DNA from: an uncultured bacterium
GTDB lineage: Bacteria; Patescibacteriota; Dojkabacteria; SC72
DNA length: 36,788 nucleotides
Direction: 5' to 3'
Assembly (NCBI GenBank): GCA_903840015.1
Contig: CAIMEL010000017.1
Span: 1-36,788, forward strand
In this document: positions 9,329 to 29,417 of the stretch, in pieces
Numbering within the stretch: position 1 is the first letter of the stretch
Layout: the number at the start of each line of letters is the position of its first letter
Notes under the pieces: generated by a model
Database searches by the model: none
Told to the model about the DNA's origin: nothing
The model's input: only the letters and a program-made list of their open reading frames with translations
Made by a program: the position numbers and the translations under genes

Positions 9329-9405
9329 TGGTGGGCGCACCAAGGATCGAACTTGGGACCTCAGTCTTATCAGGACTGTGCTCTAACCAGCTGAGCTATA
9401 CGCCC
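9329..9405 (-). tRNA. tRNA-Ile (GAU)
   Basis: Minus strand GGGCGTA..GCTC..GAGC..loop with GAT..TGCGCCC ACCA; full cloverleaf with encoded CCA. Confidence 0.95.
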
Positions 9406-11392: not shown

Positions 11393-14107
11393 TTAGATCC
11401 CCTTGAACCCTACCTCCTGCTTGTACATTGGAGATTCAGTACCAAAAAACACCCTAGATATATCAGAATACCTCGGATCATAGGACACCACTAATGTTGG
11501 ATAAGAATAATTGTACAATCTCAGATTACGCTTAATATCAATAGATGCTGCTCCACCAGTATCCCTACCTAGAGCCACCACCCCTCCCTTGATCTGCAAA
11601 CCATCTCGTTTGAGCTTATCGACATCTACATACTCTATACTAACAACATTTTCCGAAAGGAAGAAACCCTCTACCATATCGTACTCTAGTCTACTCGCAC
11701 TAAGATAATCCCCTCCTTTGATCTTGATATCACCTTTTGCGAGAAATATACAACCAGATGTTGCATCATACGTTGTGAGATCTGGATTAATAACAATGTC
11801 ACCTTCCGCAACAACTAGAATTTTTCCTTTACATACAGCCCCTTTCGGGATTTCAATATTTGCAACCTCTATCAAACATGTTTCCAATCCAGCTGGAGAA
11901 CACTCATCTATCTTGTTAACAGCCTTAAACTCTTCTTTCCTCTCCCCCAACTTCTTTGTTAAATACGAGAACCAGAAATTCTTCTTCTCATTAGAATCAT
12001 ACACTCCCGTTACCCTGACACCACCGATACTACGCAAGAAGCTCTCCACAACCTGATGCCTTGTTGCAACAAGTTCTGTACCTTTGTCAATTTCTGAAAC
12101 TAACATTTTAATCCTCTCAAAAGGATTGTAACCCATTTCGTCGGACATAGATTTAGCACCAATCCCTGAATACCCCTTTGAATACACGACCCCACCCTTT
12201 GTTGCGAACCAAGGATCTAAGTTCACATTTAATACTGTTTTACTTACATTACAGGCCTGATCGTAAGCGGTTGAATAAATGACAATAGTACCAAGTTCAT
12301 TTGCCCCTATCCCTATAACTCTCGAATCTTGATATATATTTGAACTTGGAGTCAGATTATTAAATTGCCAACTATTAGTATCATCCAACAATCCAATCTC
12401 CTCCTCAGGAGGTATTTCATATGGCTCTTCAAATTCTATTTGACCAACATCAACCATATCTACCATATCAATACTTCCTACTTTACCATCATCTCCAGGA
12501 TCTAGGCGGTAAGCATTTAATACAAAATCCGTTATCTTAGAATTTGTACCATCTATCCTCCAACTTAACTCAAGACTTTCGGGAGTTAATACTTTTTCCT
12601 TAAAGCTAGAGACGTCCGGATCCTGCAAATCTATACCCCAATTAAAAAATCTTTGGATTGTTGGAAGATATACCTGGGTCCCTGTGAAAGAGGAAGAATC
12701 TAAGACTTCCAGATTAACACCATATTCACCAGCGAAATGCTGTAAAGAAGAATTTTCATTGAAAAGCAAGCTCATTTCGAAGGTTATTATTGTTCCTTCA
12801 TAAACCTTGAGATAGTTACCACTATCGCCCTTAATTACACCACCAATACGTTCACCTGATGAATTCCTAATCTCAAGAACGGAACCAACCTCCTGCATTC
12901 TTCCCCATTCAGAGTCTGAATATGTATAGAATACTGGGCTATTCCAATCTGAGCCATTTTTTACAACAAGGATCCCCAGATTGCCTAGAGATGTACCTAA
13001 ATATGTATCAGAAAGAGATATGCTATCGCTTACAGGTGAATTTTTAGAAAACCAGAACATAGCTCCCCTGATATTTTGAGTACCATCAGGATCATAACCA
13101 GCAACTCGCATCTTAAGAGGATTGTTCAAGGTCTTGCCTGTATACCAGGTATCCGAAGCTCTACCGTTACAAAGACTCTTCTCCGGTACTATCTCATCTA
13201 TGGTACATTTTTTGTCAGGCTCCATGTCACACACCTCTGATTCTGGGCAACTTGGATCATCCGCTGCTATGGCTGGATTGGTATCGCAAGGGTCTACTAT
13301 TTTAGGGGCTAAGTTAATTTGATAGTAGCCCTTAATAGATGTTGAGTATCTTTTCCCATCATCACATTTGTTCAGATAGTAGTAATACGCTGCGACTTCC
13401 CCCCCACCCCCAGCGGTTAAAACTTGCGATACAGGAACAGAGGAAGGTACAAAATTTTGGACATTATCAGAAGTACTACGCGTACACTGATCTTCTCCTG
13501 ACAAACTACTACAATTGATATTACCTTCCCACGAGTCTCTAGTCCCATAGTTATCAACTCTGAACTCATACCCTACAGCCCTTGCCGAGCTTGGAGTTGA
13601 GATTTTAGGCATACTCATTTCAACCAGGTAATCTTTCTCCACCTTAGCATAGTATCCCCTGTAAGTACCATTACTTCCTGAGTACCACATTCTGTACTCT
13701 CCTCCATCTATTAACACAAACGGATCTGAGGCATGCGTAGTATCTCCTCCAGAGGTTCCCCTTGGGATTCTACCTTCTGTGGAGGTGGTATTAGAGTTAG
13801 CTGGTGTTGCATTGTTAACCTTCTGCCAGTTGATACCATCCAAAGAGTATGCGTAATATATTCTCCAGTTACTACCATCACTTCCTGAGTACCACATCTT
13901 GTAAAGGCTGTCTTCCTTGGTCACTGTTGGAGATTGGATATGGGTGTCGTCTCCACTACCACCTGTACCTCTCGGGATTGTTCCATTGGTTGATGTTGTG
14001 TTTGAGTTCGCAGGTGTTGTGTTGTTGTACTTACTCCAATCTGTACCGTTAGAAGATGTTGCATAGTAGATTCTGTAGTTACTGCCATCCGAGGCTGAGT
14101 ACCACAT
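11393..14107 (-). CDS. C-terminal part of a giant secreted tandem-repeat protein (separated from 14131-16374 by a frameshift)
   Basis: Starts with the same 'YKMWYS(A/G)SDGSNYRIYYATSSNG' repeat family as the upstream ORF. The C-terminus contains 'GKILVVAEGDIVINPDLTTYDATSGCIFLAKGDIKIKGG' and no recognised enzyme domain. Confidence 0.8.
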   Translation of the reverse strand: MWYSASDGSNYRIYYATSSNGTDWSKYNNTTPANSNTTSTNGTIPRGTGGSGDDTHIQSPTVTKEDSLYKMWYSGSDGSNWRIYYAYSLDGINWQKVNNATPANSNTTSTEGRIPRGTSGGDTTHASDPFVLIDGGEYRMWYSGSNGTYRGYYAKVEKDYLVEMSMPKISTPSSARAVGYEFRVDNYGTRDSWEGNINCSSLSGEDQCTRSTSDNVQNFVPSSVPVSQVLTAGGGGEVAAYYYYLNKCDDGKRYSTSIKGYYQINLAPKIVDPCDTNPAIAADDPSCPESEVCDMEPDKKCTIDEIVPEKSLCNGRASDTWYTGKTLNNPLKMRVAGYDPDGTQNIRGAMFWFSKNSPVSDSISLSDTYLGTSLGNLGILVVKNGSDWNSPVFYTYSDSEWGRMQEVGSVLEIRNSSGERIGGVIKGDSGNYLKVYEGTIITFEMSLLFNENSSLQHFAGEYGVNLEVLDSSSFTGTQVYLPTIQRFFNWGIDLQDPDVSSFKEKVLTPESLELSWRIDGTNSKITDFVLNAYRLDPGDDGKVGSIDMVDMVDVGQIEFEEPYEIPPEEEIGLLDDTNSWQFNNLTPSSNIYQDSRVIGIGANELGTIVIYSTAYDQACNVSKTVLNVNLDPWFATKGGVVYSKGYSGIGAKSMSDEMGYNPFERIKMLVSEIDKGTELVATRHQVVESFLRSIGGVRVTGVYDSNEKKNFWFSYLTKKLGERKEEFKAVNKIDECSPAGLETCLIEVANIEIPKGAVCKGKILVVAEGDIVINPDLTTYDATSGCIFLAKGDIKIKGGDYLSASRLEYDMVEGFFLSENVVSIEYVDVDKLKRDGLQIKGGVVALGRDTGGAASIDIKRNLRLYNYSYPTLVVSYDPRYSDISRVFFGTESPMYKQEVGFKGI

Positions 14108-14124
14108 CTTGTAGGTTCCTCCAT

Positions 14125-15640
14125 CCTTGATTACAGAGACTGAGAGTATATGAGCACATCACCCCTAGTGTTGGTACCTCTTGGTATCCTTCCGTTAGTT
14201 GAGGTGGTATCTGAATTTGCTGGATTGTTGTTGTCCATCTTGTTCCATGTAAGACCACCATCACCAGAAGTTGCGTAGAAGATTCTCCAGTTTGCTCCAT
14301 CGTAGCCTGAGTACCACATTTTGTACGTTCCTCCATCCTTGATTACCCACGGGTTTCTAACATGTACATCATCTCCCTTCCCACTGTTACCTAGGCCAAG
14401 CCTACCATTACTTGAAACTGTATCACTTCTACCATGGGCCTCGTTGTCATACTTGTTCCATTTAAAGCCATCCGTTGAAGTTGCATGGTAGATTCTCCAG
14501 GTAGAACCATCGTAACCTGAGTACCACATTTTGTAGGTACCATCTTTTACGATCGATACTCCTTGAATACCTGCATCATCACCTCTACCACTAGAACCAA
14601 GAGGAAGTCTACCTGATGTACTTACAGAGTCCAGTTTACCTGGAATATTGTTGTTGTACTTAGAGATATTTAAGCCGTCAGAGGAGGTTGCGTAGTAGAC
14701 CCTGTTGATTGATCCGTCCTCACCTGCATACCAGATCTTGTATTGGCCATCTACATAGATTACATATGGAAAGTAGACATGATCATCGTCTCCTTTACCA
14801 CTTAACCCTTGTGGGATTTGGCCATCAGAAGACACAGTATCTGAGTCCACAGGTATAACATTGTTTCTTTTAGTCCAATCAATCCCATTGTTTGAGGTTG
14901 CAAAGAATGTTCTGTAAAAGGAGCCATCCGATGCAGAATACCACATCTTGTAAACACCTTCTACCTTAACAACTGAGAGGCCTTGGACATGCGCATCATC
15001 TCCTTTACCATTTGTACCAAGAGGGATTCGTCCATTAGTTGAGGTTGTATCTGAAGCGACAGGAACAACATTATCTCTTTTAGTCCAGGTCAATCCGTCA
15101 GGGGAAGTAGTATAGTAGATTCGGTAGTTACTACCATTAGATGCAGAGTACCACATCTTGTATGTCTCGCCATCTTTGATTACTGACACTCCAAGAAGAT
15201 GTGTACTGTCTCCTTTGCCACTAGTTCCTCGTGGGATTCTTCCATCGGTTGAGGTTGTATCTGAGTTTGCAGGATTGGTATTGTTTCGTTTGCTCCATGT
15301 TAGGCCTTCATCGCTAGAGGTTGCATAGAAGATTCGCCAGTTTGCTCCATCGTAACCTGAGTACCACATTTTAAGTGTTCCACTGTCATCAATGACCCAG
15401 GGGTTTCGTACATGGACGTCGTCCCCCTTACCACTTGTCCCTATGGGGACTCTACCGTTGGTAGAAGTAGTATCTGAGGCAGCAGGTGCTGTGTTGTCAT
15501 ACTTGGTCCATCTAATTCCATTGGTTGAGGTTGCGTAGTAGATTCGGTAGTTTGAGCCATCGGAAGCGGAGTACCACATCTTGTACACACCATCCTGTTC
15601 GATGACTGCACCACCAATTACATGGGCATCGTCTCCTCTA
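14125..15640. repeat. Tandem ~210-bp coding repeats (continue past the frameshift to ~13650)
   Basis: Recurring DNA segments such as 'gattctccagtttgctccatcgtagcctgagtaccacattttgta' and 'ggtatctgaatttgctggattg' at roughly 210-215 bp spacing. Confidence 0.85.
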
Positions 15641-16374
15641 CCTGCAGCACCCAAAGGTAGGCGGCTGTCTGTTTGAGATACGGGATATCCATCAGCTACA
15701 GGGGCTACTGCATTGTTTAGTTTGGTGGTTTTGTTGTCATTTGCTAAAAGAGCATCAACATCTCCAAGGGAGGAGATGTCTATGTTCGTTGGGTTCGCTG
15801 GATCGGTAGAAAGAGTGTACACTATTCCGTTAACATTCATCTTTACAGACGTAGGAGCCGAAGGATTTGTGTTATTCGTTTCCAAAGGATAGCATAGTCT
15901 CGTCTTGGAATTACAACTACCTCCACAGTTATCAGTACCACTACAAGACTGTGTTGCACTCGAATCGGCAGGACACCCAGTCTGTGAGCTTGAGTATCCA
16001 GAAGGACACTGCTTCAAGGTACAATCTGTACAGCTAGTAACAACACAAGTTATTTTGTTGCAGCAGCCAGCAAATTCAGAGTTAATTTGTGCTTGGCAAT
16101 CAGCAAGAGTCCTGTAGTACTCTTTTCCACCAGAACAGGCCGCATCAGTTCCAGAGCAAGAGTATGGGACTGTATATTTCTCTCGGAAAAAACAGTAAGG
16201 AGGGGTAACATATACACCCAAACCAACAACACCTCCCGAGGTCTCACAATAGTATCCAGTTGGACACTTATATGCCATAGCAACAGAATCGAAAGAAAGA
16301 AGAAAGCCTAAAGAGGATAGAATCAAAGAGAATAGTAGAACAAAATAGTTGTATTTTTTAGATTTACTTGGCAT
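14131..16374 (-). CDS. N-terminal part of a giant secreted tandem-repeat protein (signal peptide, Cys-rich region, then ~70-aa repeats)
   Basis: Hydrophobic leader 'YFVLLFSLILSSLGFLLSFDSVAMA', Cys-rich segment, then repeated '(T/V)YKMWYSxxDGxxxRIxYATSxDGLxWxKxxNxxPxxSDTTSTNGRIPxGTSGKGDDxH'. Confidence 0.85.
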   Translation of the reverse strand: MPSKSKKYNYFVLLFSLILSSLGFLLSFDSVAMAYKCPTGYYCETSGGVVGLGVYVTPPYCFFREKYTVPYSCSGTDAACSGGKEYYRTLADCQAQINSEFAGCCNKITCVVTSCTDCTLKQCPSGYSSSQTGCPADSSATQSCSGTDNCGGSCNSKTRLCYPLETNNTNPSAPTSVKMNVNGIVYTLSTDPANPTNIDISSLGDVDALLANDNKTTKLNNAVAPVADGYPVSQTDSRLPLGAAGRGDDAHVIGGAVIEQDGVYKMWYSASDGSNYRIYYATSTNGIRWTKYDNTAPAASDTTSTNGRVPIGTSGKGDDVHVRNPWVIDDSGTLKMWYSGYDGANWRIFYATSSDEGLTWSKRNNTNPANSDTTSTDGRIPRGTSGKGDSTHLLGVSVIKDGETYKMWYSASNGSNYRIYYTTSPDGLTWTKRDNVVPVASDTTSTNGRIPLGTNGKGDDAHVQGLSVVKVEGVYKMWYSASDGSFYRTFFATSNNGIDWTKRNNVIPVDSDTVSSDGQIPQGLSGKGDDDHVYFPYVIYVDGQYKIWYAGEDGSINRVYYATSSDGLNISKYNNNIPGKLDSVSTSGRLPLGSSGRGDDAGIQGVSIVKDGTYKMWYSGYDGSTWRIYHATSTDGFKWNKYDNEAHGRSDTVSSNGRLGLGNSGKGDDVHVRNPWVIKDGGTYKMWYSGYDGANWRIFYATSGDGGLTWNKMDNNNPANSDTTSTNGRIPRGTNTRGDVLIYSQSL

Positions 16375-17453: not shown

Positions 17454-19289
17454 CTAATGTCTTGCTTCAAAAATCGTTTCTAATTCTGCAATAGTTGTAG
17501 CTTCTGCAACTCCCTTGTCTCTTCCCCATTCGACCAATCTTGGAAATCGCAAAGAAAATCCACCACCGATATTCTCGTCTACTCTTGCTAAACTCCTAGT
17601 TATCTCATCTGCTTCCACAGTGAAAACGATTTTAGGGACAACCCAAATATCAGGCGTCAAAGAGTTCGGACAAATAACATTTCGTGCCATGTCGTTAATC
17701 CTGTCTTGCCCTAATTCTTCCCCAATTCTAGTTAAAATCTCATCATCAAAACCAGTTCCAACCTTACATATCGCTTCAAACCTATCCATCTCTGGGTTAT
17801 ACAAAGCTCCGAGTACAGCCCCCACACCAAGAGAAGATCTACGACCAGAACCAACATAATACCCTACAGCTACTAGATCAACAGTATCAACAAGTGATGT
17901 TAACATAGACTTTTTCATCTTAATCCAATCATAGTTCCTCTCTCCAGGACAGTATCCACCTTCGAGTTTCTTTACTATAATGCCCTCGTAACCAGCAGAG
18001 ACATTAAGATCAAACTCACCCTTTAAGGCTTCTGCACCCTGAACTACCTTAGTATCACAGGCATCTATACTCCCCTGGGTATCCAAACCTTCTAACACCT
18101 TAACTCTTTTTACAGTATCCTCCTTCAAGAAATCCCTATCCTCAAGAGCTAAAATGTCAAAACACATAGCCTTAACGGGTATATCTTTGCCCATATTCTC
18201 CACTCCATGCTTTCGTCTTCTTTGCATAGTATCTTGGAATGGCAAGAACTTCTTCCCATCCCACCCTAGGACTTCCGAATCTAAGACAAAAGACCCTGCA
18301 GACATCTCTCTTGCTGACTGCACGATTTCTGGAAACATCGCAGTAACATCCTCAAGGTTCCTTGTAAAAAGTTTTACTGTAACAATATCCTCTGCCCTAC
18401 CAAACAATCCTCCTGTATTCATATTCTTTTGCAAGTATTTCTTCCAAACTGCCCCATCGTCGCCTACAGAACCACTCTCTTTGTACTTGTGTATCTGACA
18501 TCGAAGCCCATCGAATTTAGGTTGAACCAATACCTTCTCTCCCAATCTCTCGATAGTCTCTTCGAAGGACCCCACTCTTTCTACAAGCCTAGATAGCACT
18601 GGGATGCCAGGAGTAATACATATCTCTTTTAACATCTTCTTGCTCTCCTCAGAAGACCTACCTACTACTGTCGCACAAATTTCACCAATATCTGCATATA
18701 CACCGTAAGCTCTTGATAGTTCATCACTTAAACCCTTGCCACCCACTGCAACATACGAGAAAACATCTAGTAGAGTTCTGTAGTTTATGCCAAATCTTAA
18801 AGATCCACATACTATTCTAGTGAAGTATTTAAGCTCAAGCGGTGACATAGTGGTCATCGCAGAAGAAATTAAGATATTCTTCGACGAAACAGAACCTGAT
18901 CCTGTTGTATTAACAATCTTCCACAAGAGCCCATATACCTCAAGAAGTGATAGATTTGTTTCTTTCGATTTAGCACCCTCCACAACTTTGTAAACAGTAT
19001 CCCCAATATCACCTGTTTCCCTTCTAACAAGAGAGACATCAATTGTAAGGCTATTCATTTTTACAAAAGATTCTAGAAGATTGAGAAAGCTTTTCTCTGA
19101 ATAGTTAAATTCGCTATTTACAAATGATGGAGCAACCCTCCCAAGAATCAGGTATGAAAGAATCTGAGCATCCTCCATACCTAAAGTTTTGTAAAATTCA
19201 GAGAGAACCATTGTTGTCTCGTTGCGAGAAGAGATACCTTCTATGGTATCAAAGATTTTGCAAACATCAAGAAATTTCACTCTCTCCAT
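17454..19289 (-). CDS. lig: ATP-dependent DNA ligase, archaeal/eukaryal type
   Basis: Motif I 'VQPKFDGLRCQIHK', 'FVLDSEVLGWDGKKFLPFQDTMQRRRKHG', 'GYEGIIVKKLEGGYCPGERNYDWIKMKK'. Confidence 0.9.
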   Translation of the reverse strand: MERVKFLDVCKIFDTIEGISSRNETTMVLSEFYKTLGMEDAQILSYLILGRVAPSFVNSEFNYSEKSFLNLLESFVKMNSLTIDVSLVRRETGDIGDTVYKVVEGAKSKETNLSLLEVYGLLWKIVNTTGSGSVSSKNILISSAMTTMSPLELKYFTRIVCGSLRFGINYRTLLDVFSYVAVGGKGLSDELSRAYGVYADIGEICATVVGRSSEESKKMLKEICITPGIPVLSRLVERVGSFEETIERLGEKVLVQPKFDGLRCQIHKYKESGSVGDDGAVWKKYLQKNMNTGGLFGRAEDIVTVKLFTRNLEDVTAMFPEIVQSAREMSAGSFVLDSEVLGWDGKKFLPFQDTMQRRRKHGVENMGKDIPVKAMCFDILALEDRDFLKEDTVKRVKVLEGLDTQGSIDACDTKVVQGAEALKGEFDLNVSAGYEGIIVKKLEGGYCPGERNYDWIKMKKSMLTSLVDTVDLVAVGYYVGSGRRSSLGVGAVLGALYNPEMDRFEAICKVGTGFDDEILTRIGEELGQDRINDMARNVICPNSLTPDIWVVPKIVFTVEADEITRSLARVDENIGGGFSLRFPRLVEWGRDKGVAEATTIAELETIFEARH

Positions 19290-24339: not shown

Positions 24340-24413
24340 TGGTGGGAAGTGGAATCGAACCACCGACCTTGGGTTTATGAATCCCATGCTCTAACCGACT
24401 GAGCTATCCCACC
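24340..24413 (-). tRNA. tRNA-Met (CAU), elongator-like
   Basis: GGTGGGA..GCTC..GAGC..TTCATAA..GGTGG TTCGATT CCACT TCCCACC A. G1-C72 paired, so not an initiator; CCA not encoded. Confidence 0.9.
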
Positions 24414-25124: not shown

Positions 25125-25199
25125 TGGTTGCGGGGGTCGGACTCGAACCGACGACCTCCAGGTTATGAGCCTGACGAGCTTCCACTGCTCTACCCCGCG
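25125..25199 (-). tRNA. tRNA-fMet (initiator, CAU)
   Basis: CGCGGGGTAGAGCAGTGGAAGCTCGTCAGGCTCATAACCTGGAGGTCGTCGGTTCGAGTCCGACCCCCGCAACCA: unpaired C1-A72 and near-match to bacterial initiator tRNA; CCA encoded. Confidence 0.95.
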
Positions 25200-25814: not shown

Positions 25815-26702
25815 GTGGGGGAAATAAACAATCCAGATTTCAAAGCAAAAAGTAACCTGTTTGTTGAAGATCTAAAGTCTAAGAATCGTTCAGAAGCAAC
25901 AGTTATTGCCTATGCCAAAGATATTGAGCAACTTTTAAACTTCTTTTCTAAGGATGGGCTCAGCTCACTCGATTCAATTCAAGCAGAAGACCTTGAAAGA
26001 TATAAACAAAATCTACAGGACAACAACTACACACCTAAAAGTATTTCCAGAAAGATTAACAGTACAAGAACATTTTTCAGATACCTTCTTGAGAATTCAT
26101 ATATAAAAGACAATGTATCTGAGAAATTAGCACACCCAAGATTCGAAACAAAACCTCCCAGAGTTCTAACAGAAATGGAATACAGAGCGTTAAGAGATGT
26201 AAGTAGAGTTGATGTCCGATTATATTCCATTGTAGAAATTCTTTTACAAACAGGGATCCGTATTGGAGAATTAGCAGGATTAACAGTTGACGATATAAGG
26301 AAATCAAAAGATAATAAAATAGATTTCTTGTATATAAGAGCTTACGGTAGTCATCCTTCTAGAAAAGTTCCGTTGAACAAATCTGCAAAGAAAGCTATAG
26401 ATGAATATTTAGTCATAAGACCAGAGACAGAGGAAGATACAATCTTCGTAACAAAGAACGGAAGACCGTTATTAGTTAGAAATATAAGGACAGCAATAGA
26501 TAAAGCTTTTGAGAAAGCAGGTATCAAGAATGCCAAGGTTAATGACCTAAGAAACACGTTCATAGCACACCACCTTTCAAATGGTGTCAGTTTGGTAACT
26601 GTTTCCAAATTGGTTGGGCACAAAAGACTTTCCACTACAGAGAAGTATCTTAACCTTGTGAAGATGCAATCAGAAGAGGAGAAAAGTCTTAAAGATTTAT
26701 AA
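25815..26702 (+). CDS. Tyrosine recombinase, XerC/XerD-like
   Basis: SAM-like N-domain, 'LLQTGIRIGELAGL' (Arg I), 'VNDLRNTFIAHHLSNG' (Arg II), 'LVGHKRLSTTEKYLNL' (His, Tyr). GTG start. Confidence 0.9.
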   Translation: MGEINNPDFKAKSNLFVEDLKSKNRSEATVIAYAKDIEQLLNFFSKDGLSSLDSIQAEDLERYKQNLQDNNYTPKSISRKINSTRTFFRYLLENSYIKDNVSEKLAHPRFETKPPRVLTEMEYRALRDVSRVDVRLYSIVEILLQTGIRIGELAGLTVDDIRKSKDNKIDFLYIRAYGSHPSRKVPLNKSAKKAIDEYLVIRPETEEDTIFVTKNGRPLLVRNIRTAIDKAFEKAGIKNAKVNDLRNTFIAHHLSNGVSLVTVSKLVGHKRLSTTEKYLNLVKMQSEEEKSLKDL

Positions 26703-26729: not shown

Positions 26730-26806
26730 TGGTGGGAGTAGATGGATTCGAACCATCGACCACGGCTTTATAAGAACCGCGCTCTAACCGACTGAGCTAT
26801 ACTCCC
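26730..26806 (-). tRNA. tRNA-Ile (UAU)
   Basis: GGGAGTA TA GCTC AGTCGGTTA GAGC G CGGTT CTTATAA AGCCG TGGTC GATGG TTCGAAT CCATC TACTCCC ACCA. Clean cloverleaf; anticodon loop CTTATAA gives UAU. Confidence 0.92.
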
Positions 26807-26855
26807 GTATAACACACGATTTTACCAAATGTAGAGAGATATTAGAAGAGTATGA

Positions 26856-29417
26856 CTAAAAACCCATCGAAGGGAATGGTGATGGTTCTGGTGGTTTCTC
26901 CTCTTTACGATCAAGTTGAGATCGAATCTTAATGTCTTGATTTACAATTTCTAGATCTCTTCCATATTTTCTTCTAGACAATTCCTTAATTATCTTAGCA
27001 ACTTCTGCGTTTACAGGTAAATCAAAACCAGAGTCTGGATACTTTGAACCAAACAGTGTATCCAGTGTAAAAGGTGAAGGATACGAACCTTTTGTTAAAA
27101 GTTTTGTGTAATAGTGACCAAGACCCTGATTCACCATATCCATAGCTGTAATATATGATTCAAACTGAGTTTCCAAGAATTTGGCATCCTCTGCACTACA
27201 CCTCGCAACAAATAGCGATCCTACATTCCCAAAAACAGCATTTCGGATATCTTCAGGCAATTGACCGATATATTGATGAGCCAGAGTAAGATTCAATCTG
27301 TACTTCCTTGCTTCAGAGAGAATAGAGTTAAACTCCTCAGTTGCGAAATTTTGGAACTCATCGGCATAGAAGAAGAAATCTCTTCTATCCTTCTCCTCCA
27401 TATCTTCCCTGCTAAGAGCTGCTGCGAGCATTTTTTGGACTAGGAGCAAACCTAAGAAGGACATATTCTCGTCCCCTATTTTTCCCTTTGAAAGATTCAC
27501 TATTAATATCTTACCGTTATCCATCACCTCCCTAAAATCAAAGGAAGATCTTGACTGCCCTATTATATTCCTGATTGCCAGATTCGTTGTAAATTTATCA
27601 AACTTAGAAATGAAATATGTTAGAGATTCTGACTTTGTCTTCTTATCTGTTTTAGCAACCTGATCAGTCCAATATCTCTTCACTAACTCGTCTTGTATTA
27701 AAGGCAACCAGTAACTCATAACCCAATCTTCATCTTGTAAAATCCTTACAACTTCGATAAGGGTTGAATCTTTTTTAGACATTGCTGTCAACATAGAGTT
27801 ACGCACAGCCTGTTGAAATGCAGGGCCGGCATATCCTTGATTGTGTGGATCAAACAGCCTGATAAGTAATGCTAAGAAGCTATTAACAACTTGATGCTTA
27901 TGCTGTTCATTGTAATACTCCATGATATTTATACCGAAAGGCCTTTCGAAATCACCAGCATCAAAGTAGATTACATCCTCTGCCCTCTCTGGTGGTATAC
28001 GCTCAAGAATCATCTCTGCAGCCTGTCCGTGGGGATCAATAAAACAACATCCATCTCCATTGTATATATCTTGCAAAATCATTCTCACCATCAACCAAGA
28101 TTTTCCAGTACCCGTTTGACCAAGTATATATGAATGCCTTCGTCTATCATCTCTTTCAAAACATACTATTTTCTTCTTACCTCTGAAATGATTATTACCT
28201 ATCCATATTGTATCTTTCGAATTAATATCAGAGCTAATCTCATTACTTGCTATTAATTCCTTTGAAAGAAGCCATCGGATATTTGGAGTAGATATATCTT
28301 TATTCGGGAAATGATACAGTGAAGCTAACTCTTCTAAGTTAAGAATTGTTTTTTTATCCTCTGGCGTTCTACGGTATATTACATCGTAGAGGAATTTTTT
28401 TTCATCATTCTTAGAAATTTTTCTCTTCTTCAACCTATTTATCCCTGGATTTCCATACTGGTCAAAAGCCCCAATTATATTATCCAAATGCATCTTGGCT
28501 ATAGCTTTATCTGGAGCACTAGTGACTATACGAATCTCAGCCATAAGTCCTGGTTTTGAGACCTTTTTACTAATAGCTTGTAACTTCTCTTGCGAGACAT
28601 TCATTTTCTTTTTTTCAGGATCAGAGTTATTATTCTCTACCTTCTGAACAAATTTACTTCCATTCTTTTGCCATACTGACTCGGCCGGAGCAACAATCAA
28701 TTGAACTAACGCCCCTTCGTTTTCTGACATTTTGCTCAATGTACTAAGCACATTTGCCATTGGATCCCCAGTAAAATCTTCAGCTACACGGATTGGGCAG
28801 TACGAATCTTCATCCAGCCCTAATCTTGCATACTCTATTTGTGACCCTGGAGCAAAAATGTTGTATTCACTTACTACCGAAACATCGGCATCTTGATATG
28901 ATCCTAGTATTTGCTTCTCAACCAAATCCGCAAATTTCTTGGGACAATGTACATAGAATCGAATCTCTCCTGGCAAACCAATAACCTCAAAGCTAACACA
29001 GTTATTTACACTGAAATTCTCAGCTAAACCCTCCCCCTTCCCCCCTATACCATACAGATTTGCAAACATCTTTTCTGCAACCCCTATCTCAACCTCATTA
29101 TTCCTTGGAACCCTAACTTCCATTAAGACACCATCCGATGCTTTTTCATTACGATCTTTTTTTCTCAATCTCTTTCGTACAACTAAGAAACCTATGACAC
29201 CTGATATTATTAAAACAAAGAAGAAGACAATCCATCCCCAAGGGATATCGATATTCTTACTAGGTCCATAATATTCCTGATAGCTATTGTCTGGGTACAC
29301 CACATCTGCCCCAATTTCTATCTCTGGTTCTTTTACAGGAGAAGGTCCTATTTGTGAATATGTGAATTCGTTAAAATCCATATACAGGACAGTATATATT
29401 ATGCTAAAGAATATCAC
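26856..29417 (-). CDS. TraG/VirD4/VirB4-like membrane-anchored P-loop ATPase
   Basis: One N-terminal TM, Walker A 'YILGQTGTGKSWLMVRMILQ', 'GCCFIDPHGQAAEMILERIP', Walker B 'RDFFFYADEFQNFATEEFNSILSEARKYRLNLTLAHQYIGQL'. Confidence 0.85.
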   Translation of the reverse strand: MIFFSIIYTVLYMDFNEFTYSQIGPSPVKEPEIEIGADVVYPDNSYQEYYGPSKNIDIPWGWIVFFFVLIISGVIGFLVVRKRLRKKDRNEKASDGVLMEVRVPRNNEVEIGVAEKMFANLYGIGGKGEGLAENFSVNNCVSFEVIGLPGEIRFYVHCPKKFADLVEKQILGSYQDADVSVVSEYNIFAPGSQIEYARLGLDEDSYCPIRVAEDFTGDPMANVLSTLSKMSENEGALVQLIVAPAESVWQKNGSKFVQKVENNNSDPEKKKMNVSQEKLQAISKKVSKPGLMAEIRIVTSAPDKAIAKMHLDNIIGAFDQYGNPGINRLKKRKISKNDEKKFLYDVIYRRTPEDKKTILNLEELASLYHFPNKDISTPNIRWLLSKELIASNEISSDINSKDTIWIGNNHFRGKKKIVCFERDDRRRHSYILGQTGTGKSWLMVRMILQDIYNGDGCCFIDPHGQAAEMILERIPPERAEDVIYFDAGDFERPFGINIMEYYNEQHKHQVVNSFLALLIRLFDPHNQGYAGPAFQQAVRNSMLTAMSKKDSTLIEVVRILQDEDWVMSYWLPLIQDELVKRYWTDQVAKTDKKTKSESLTYFISKFDKFTTNLAIRNIIGQSRSSFDFREVMDNGKILIVNLSKGKIGDENMSFLGLLLVQKMLAAALSREDMEEKDRRDFFFYADEFQNFATEEFNSILSEARKYRLNLTLAHQYIGQLPEDIRNAVFGNVGSLFVARCSAEDAKFLETQFESYITAMDMVNQGLGHYYTKLLTKGSYPSPFTLDTLFGSKYPDSGFDLPVNAEVAKIIKELSRRKYGRDLEIVNQDIKIRSQLDRKEEKPPEPSPFPSMGF

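Follow-up and report, generated by a model that had tools for sequence, protein, structure and literature searches.

A tRNA-Ile with a UAU anticodon in a Dojkabacteria genome lacking detectable tilS, and its counterparts among Patescibacteria

Background

Bacterial TilS is generally portrayed as essential and widely conserved. Decoding of AUA codons without this enzyme is already known, in M. mobile and hemoplasmas and, redundantly, in lactobacilli. Taniguchi et al. 2013, as discussed in PMC4014445, found that loss of tilS is accompanied by a UAU anticodon in M. mobile and in three hemoplasmas, and mutations in IleRS were needed in M. mobile (PMC4014445). In L. plantarum, tRNA-Ile(CAU) and tRNA-Ile(UAU) are redundant (Tomikawa 2018; Uesugi 2022, cited in PMC9976931). 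According to a 2021 review, the vast majority of bacteria lack UAU (PMC8007984), and a database paper of 2014 gives 19 as the number of bacterial species with TAT tRNAs (PMC4013482).

The locus described here resembles those of M. mobile and the hemoplasmas in the absence of tilS, a UAU anticodon in the tRNA for AUA, the use of AUA as Ile and a reduced genome. However, the IleRS of M. mobile is reported to be Arg-adapted, whereas the enzyme here is an IleRS2 without the domain concerned. L. plantarum likewise has a bacterial tRNA-Ile(UAU), which is recognized by IleRS in that organism, but it has kept the CAU tRNA, whereas the UAU tRNA is the only AUA tRNA found here. Eukaryotic cytosolic tRNA-Ile(UAU) shares the anticodon and an IleRS of the same broad class (charging is predicted in our case), but its anticodon is modified in eukaryotes (PMC8007984). 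A literature search returned no paper joining 'lysidine' with 'candidate phyla radiation'; subscription papers lay mostly outside this search, so we make no claim of priority. As far as the searched literature shows, the phylum-wide scale and the pairing with IleRS2 are apparently new.

Results and discussion

The tRNA-Ile(UAU) gene and its surroundings

The window, meaning the whole stretch of DNA analyzed (36,788 nt), is one contig (C17) of a Patescibacteria genome of 680,604 bp in 25 contigs that is 96.6% complete. Among the named loci compared, the nearest is that of Candidatus Dojkabacteria UBA3081 (FtsH 71%, Xer 76%, PolA 55%). The features around the tRNA are as follows.

25815..26702 (+): Xer-type tyrosine recombinase, convergent with the tRNA (PF00589, 1.2e-27; synteny; conserved neighbor)
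26730..26806 (-): tRNA-Ile(UAU) gene, 77 nt (ARAGORN, sequence, and motif in genomes of the class)
26819..26827 (-): candidate promoter element for the tRNA gene, of extended -10 type (TGGTAAAAT), with its end 12 nt upstream of that gene
26856..29417 (-): TraG/VirD4/HerA-like ATPase, encoded upstream of the tRNA and on its strand (PF02534, 9.5e-8; PF01935, 5.6e-7; synteny; conserved neighbor)

ARAGORN calls tRNA-Ile(tat) at exactly 26730-26806 (-). By parts, the sequence is GGGAGTA-TA-GCTC-AGTCGGTTA-GAGC-G-CGGTT-CTTATAA-AGCCG-TGGTC-GATGG-TTCGAAT-CCATC-TACTCCC-A-CCA. All arms are paired, the anticodon loop has the seven bases CTTATAA, the discriminator is A73 and the CCA is encoded, which bears out the clean cloverleaf, loop and CCA described in the initial annotation. 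Together with this intact cloverleaf and A73, the tRNA has the U12-A23 pair and A38 that are expected of a bacterial tRNA-Ile. It also has A37, and a TsaD-like motif is encoded in the genome. Of 24 genomes sampled from the class, 19 carry the UAU motif, often flanked by the same gene pair, and the reversed motif, used as a control, has no matches in 287 genomes; the tRNA is therefore not a chance match.

A simple scan for sigma-70 consensus promoters upstream of the tRNA gave no match. A conserved TGGTARAAT-like element lies in this region and fits a candidate extended -10, and the orthologous tRNA in loci L079-L083 and L203 is preceded by similar elements in the same position. The order of TraG-like ATPase, tRNA on the same strand and convergent Xer is seen repeatedly in Dojkabacteria and also in one Woesebacteria genome (L201), and rearranged versions are found in other genomes.

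Elsewhere in the window, two adjacent ORFs at 11393-16374 (-), which lie 24 bp apart and in different frames, have a repeated motif in common (YKMWYSASDG...); they are suggestive of a single long repeat protein that a frameshift or an assembly error has split. The ORF at 17454-19289 (-) encodes an ATP-dependent DNA ligase; its three domains are arranged as is typical in archaea and eukaryotes.

The tRNA complement of the genome

ARAGORN, run on the joined contigs of the whole assembly, found 46 tRNAs, including one Ile(GAU), one Ile(UAU) and two with CAU anticodons. Its long-intron calls (Thr, Pyl) were taken as spurious. The other tRNAs relevant to the Ile/Met box all lie in the window.

9329..9405 (-): tRNA-Ile(GAU) in the rRNA operon, reader of AUU and AUC (ARAGORN)
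24340..24413 (-): elongator tRNA-Met(CAU), reader of AUG (ARAGORN; Met-type stem with unpaired 31A x 39A)
25125..25199 (-): initiator tRNA-Met(CAU) (ARAGORN; C1 x A72 mismatch)

These assignments agree with the initial annotation, which had placed a tRNA-Ile(GAU) inside the rRNA operon and read the two CAU tRNAs as initiator and elongator Met. The stem of the tRNA at 24340-24413 matches that of Met-type CAU tRNAs of tilS-bearing relatives and not the paired Ile2-type stem (for example, CGGCTCATAACCG). Because it is the sole elongator CAU tRNA found in the assembly, it must read AUG. Whole-sequence identity separated Met-type from Ile2-type CAU tRNAs poorly (mean identical positions, 57.8 versus 55.6), and the Met-type assignment rests on stem positions 31 and 39, on the mismatch that marks the initiator and on the requirement for a reader of AUG. 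ARAGORN detected no tRNA-Ile(CAU) anywhere in the assembly.

The tRNA for CGU and CGC arginine codons in bacteria usually has the anticodon ACG, which needs TadA. In this genome the corresponding tRNA has the anticodon GCG (G000:C22:52580-52655 (-)), as it does in two others (G208 and G192); the 2021 review holds that the vast majority of bacteria lack Arg(GCG), as they do UAU (PMC8007984). The only TadA-like motif match in the genome comes from a 148-aa protein on contig C4 that resembles guanine-deaminase-type proteins, and TadA may therefore be missing as well. The tmRNA (G000:C23:7050-7469 (-)) has an unusually long predicted tag of 30 residues.

Absence of tilS and use of AUA codons

No protein of the assembly matches PF01171 over the family cut-off for tilS, whereas 14 of 14 control genomes score; the genome has a sub-threshold match only, and that protein is MnmA. 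The 24 sampled genomes of the class likewise yielded no tilS over the cut-off. Three short contigs (5.7 kb) were masked and completeness is 96.6%, so the exclusion of a hidden tilS or tRNA-Ile(CAU) relies on the related genomes.

AUA is the commonest Ile codon, at 35.1 per 1000 codons and 41% of Ile codons (208 aligned protein pairs). In alignments with a partner genome (G208), AUA sites correspond to Ile in 37% of cases and to Met in 4%, the same as AUU and AUC sites, and AUG sites correspond to Met in 30%. Neither member of the TilS/lysidine system, tilS and tRNA-Ile(CAU), was found, and the genome has two features seen in M. mobile, a UAU anticodon in the sole AUA-reading tRNA and no tilS. 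Because tRNA-Ile(CAU) and tilS are lacking and the commonest Ile codon aligns with Ile, AUA is almost certainly read by tRNA-Ile(UAU) without lysidine. The TilS-independent decoding proposed in the initial annotation is thus supported.

Isoleucyl-tRNA synthetase and modification of U34

The sole IleRS found (L009:2248-5157:-; 970 aa; TIGR00392, 692 bits) belongs to the IleRS2, or eukaryote-like, class. Its nearest solved structure is 8c8w (578 bits, versus 250 bits for 1ffy), and its C-terminus is PF19302, with no zf-FPG_IleRS (zinc-finger) domain. M. mobile, in the work of Taniguchi et al. 2013, reportedly depends on an arginine (R865) that corresponds in its IleRS to W905 of the E. coli enzyme, a site in the zinc domain that IleRS2 is without. 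An IleRS1 with this Arg substitution is not present here, and because the enzyme lacks the IleRS1 zinc domain, the M. mobile solution cannot apply in that form. We had expected IleRS2 to track the UAU tRNA, and this was ruled out: PF19302 occurs in 275 of 287 Patescibacteria genomes, with or without tilS, so IleRS2 alone does not predict UAU. The class may be permissive.

Extension of U34 by the MnmEG route would favor the reading of AUG. MnmE is absent from the present genome, and MnmG is absent from it and from 281 of the 287 Patescibacteria genomes in total; the six carriers are five tilS genomes and one in which neither tilS nor UAU was detected. Because MnmE and MnmG are absent, U34 of tRNA-Ile(UAU) is probably not extended by this route.

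In the mechanism that we propose, U34 would pair directly with A, so no lysidine would be needed. The tRNA would be expressed and charged, and the single IleRS2 would serve both Ile(GAU) and Ile(UAU). U34 without the MnmEG modification would read AUG poorly, and the ribosome may help to exclude AUG.

Distribution in Patescibacteria and beyond

We surveyed one sample of 287 Patescibacteria genomes, counting tilS over the family cut-off. Approximately 185 have tRNA-Ile(UAU), 75 have tilS, and neither was detected in 27. The initial annotation had called UAU anticodons rare, which stands for bacteria at large but not for Patescibacteria, in which they are common. The UAU motif with A38 occurs in 95 genomes and tilS in 75, with no overlap (Fisher 2e-16, which ignores shared ancestry). 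At least two elongator-type CAU tRNAs were matched in 49 of the 75 tilS genomes versus 4 of the 95 UAU genomes, some of these matches being by chance.

Under the A38 pattern, 117 genomes had neither system. Introns or a third system were at first suspected. However, G208, one of the 117, proved to have a tRNA-Ile(UAU) with the loop CTTATAC when it was read almost completely (820 of 853 kb), and with relaxed patterns the number of genomes left fell to 27. A relaxed pattern in 80 of the 117 gave a stem-paired UAU tRNA in 52 genomes (CTTATAC in 44 and CTTATAT in 8), a form found in none of the 75 tilS genomes. Another pattern, with ARAGORN, added 4 genomes. The last pattern, applied outside the tilS genomes only, added 34, of which 16 were confirmed by ARAGORN and 18 judged from the 3' half only. 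Position 38 of tRNA-Ile is usually A; C or U occupies it in the UAU tRNA of G208 (L107, about 15592-15667 of the locus) and of at least 50 further Patescibacteria genomes.

In one family (f16), 12 genomes have tilS and two have UAU, suggesting that the AUA decoding system was switched within the family. Within the class sampled above, 5 of the 24 genomes have no detectable UAU tRNA. One of these five, G192 (L340-L376; a single contig of 738 kb, read whole), has no detected tRNA-Ile(UAU), tRNA-Ile(CAU) or tilS, and its AUA, UUA and GAU codons are heavily used (AUA at 34.6 per 1000). ARAGORN found no Leu(UAA), Asp(GUC), Pro(UGG) or Ser(GCU) tRNA in it either; because tRNAs such as Leu(UAA) and Asp(GUC) are missing from the output too, the tRNA set is incompletely detected, possibly reflecting interrupted or unusual tRNA genes.

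A scan of one genome per species gave at least 116 stretches, 115 of them with an ARAGORN UAU tRNA. Those listed include many Patescibacteria and also Planctomycetota, Ignavibacteria, Bifidobacterium, a Lacticaseibacillus, Lachnospiraceae, a Streptomyces and some archaea, so UAU occurs outside Patescibacteria as well.

Alternative explanations

The UAU tRNA could be a spare isoacceptor, as in Lactobacillus plantarum, where CAU and UAU tRNAs coexist (Tomikawa 2018, cited in PMC9976931), with tilS and a tRNA-Ile(CAU) lying in unassembled or masked sequence. The completeness figure and the 5.7 kb of masked contigs leave some room for such genes, but no sampled genome of the class has tilS over the cut-off, tilS and the UAU motif are never found together among the 287 genomes, and internal AUG codons depend on the one elongator CAU tRNA found. 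We consider such redundancy very unlikely. The position of the Xer-type recombinase, which ends 27 bp from the 3' end of the tRNA, might indicate that the recombinase integrated there and that the tRNA is a decayed or mobile-element copy, with something else reading AUA. However, the cloverleaf and CCA are intact, and the gene order conserved in Dojkabacteria and a Woesebacteria genome fits a resident locus, which makes this explanation hard to credit. Reassignment of AUA, for example to Met, or practical disuse of the codon, which would make the tRNA marginal, merits almost no credence, given the abundance of AUA among Ile codons and the alignment of its sites with Ile in G208, with Met at the level of AUU and AUC sites only. 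It is thus highly probable that tRNA-Ile(UAU) is the sole AUA reader of this organism, free of lysidine and with IleRS2 as its predicted charging enzyme.

Conclusions

For the phylum, we lean toward the view that lysidine has been given up in most Patescibacteria, where AUA is read by a tRNA-Ile(UAU), often with C or U at position 38, that is charged by IleRS2 in the absence of MnmEG. In that case, discrimination against AUG would depend on a permissive IleRS2 and on a U34 that is either bare or modified in a new way, unlike the route taken by M. mobile. Both AUA decoding systems are found beside one IleRS class, and Patescibacteria offer many natural comparisons of fidelity in the Ile/Met box. 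IleRS2 is the mupirocin-resistant class (PMC10485003), and TilS would be no drug target in most of these bacteria. A large phylum mostly without TilS alters the view of TilS as conserved and essential, and of UAU anticodons as missing from nearly all bacteria.
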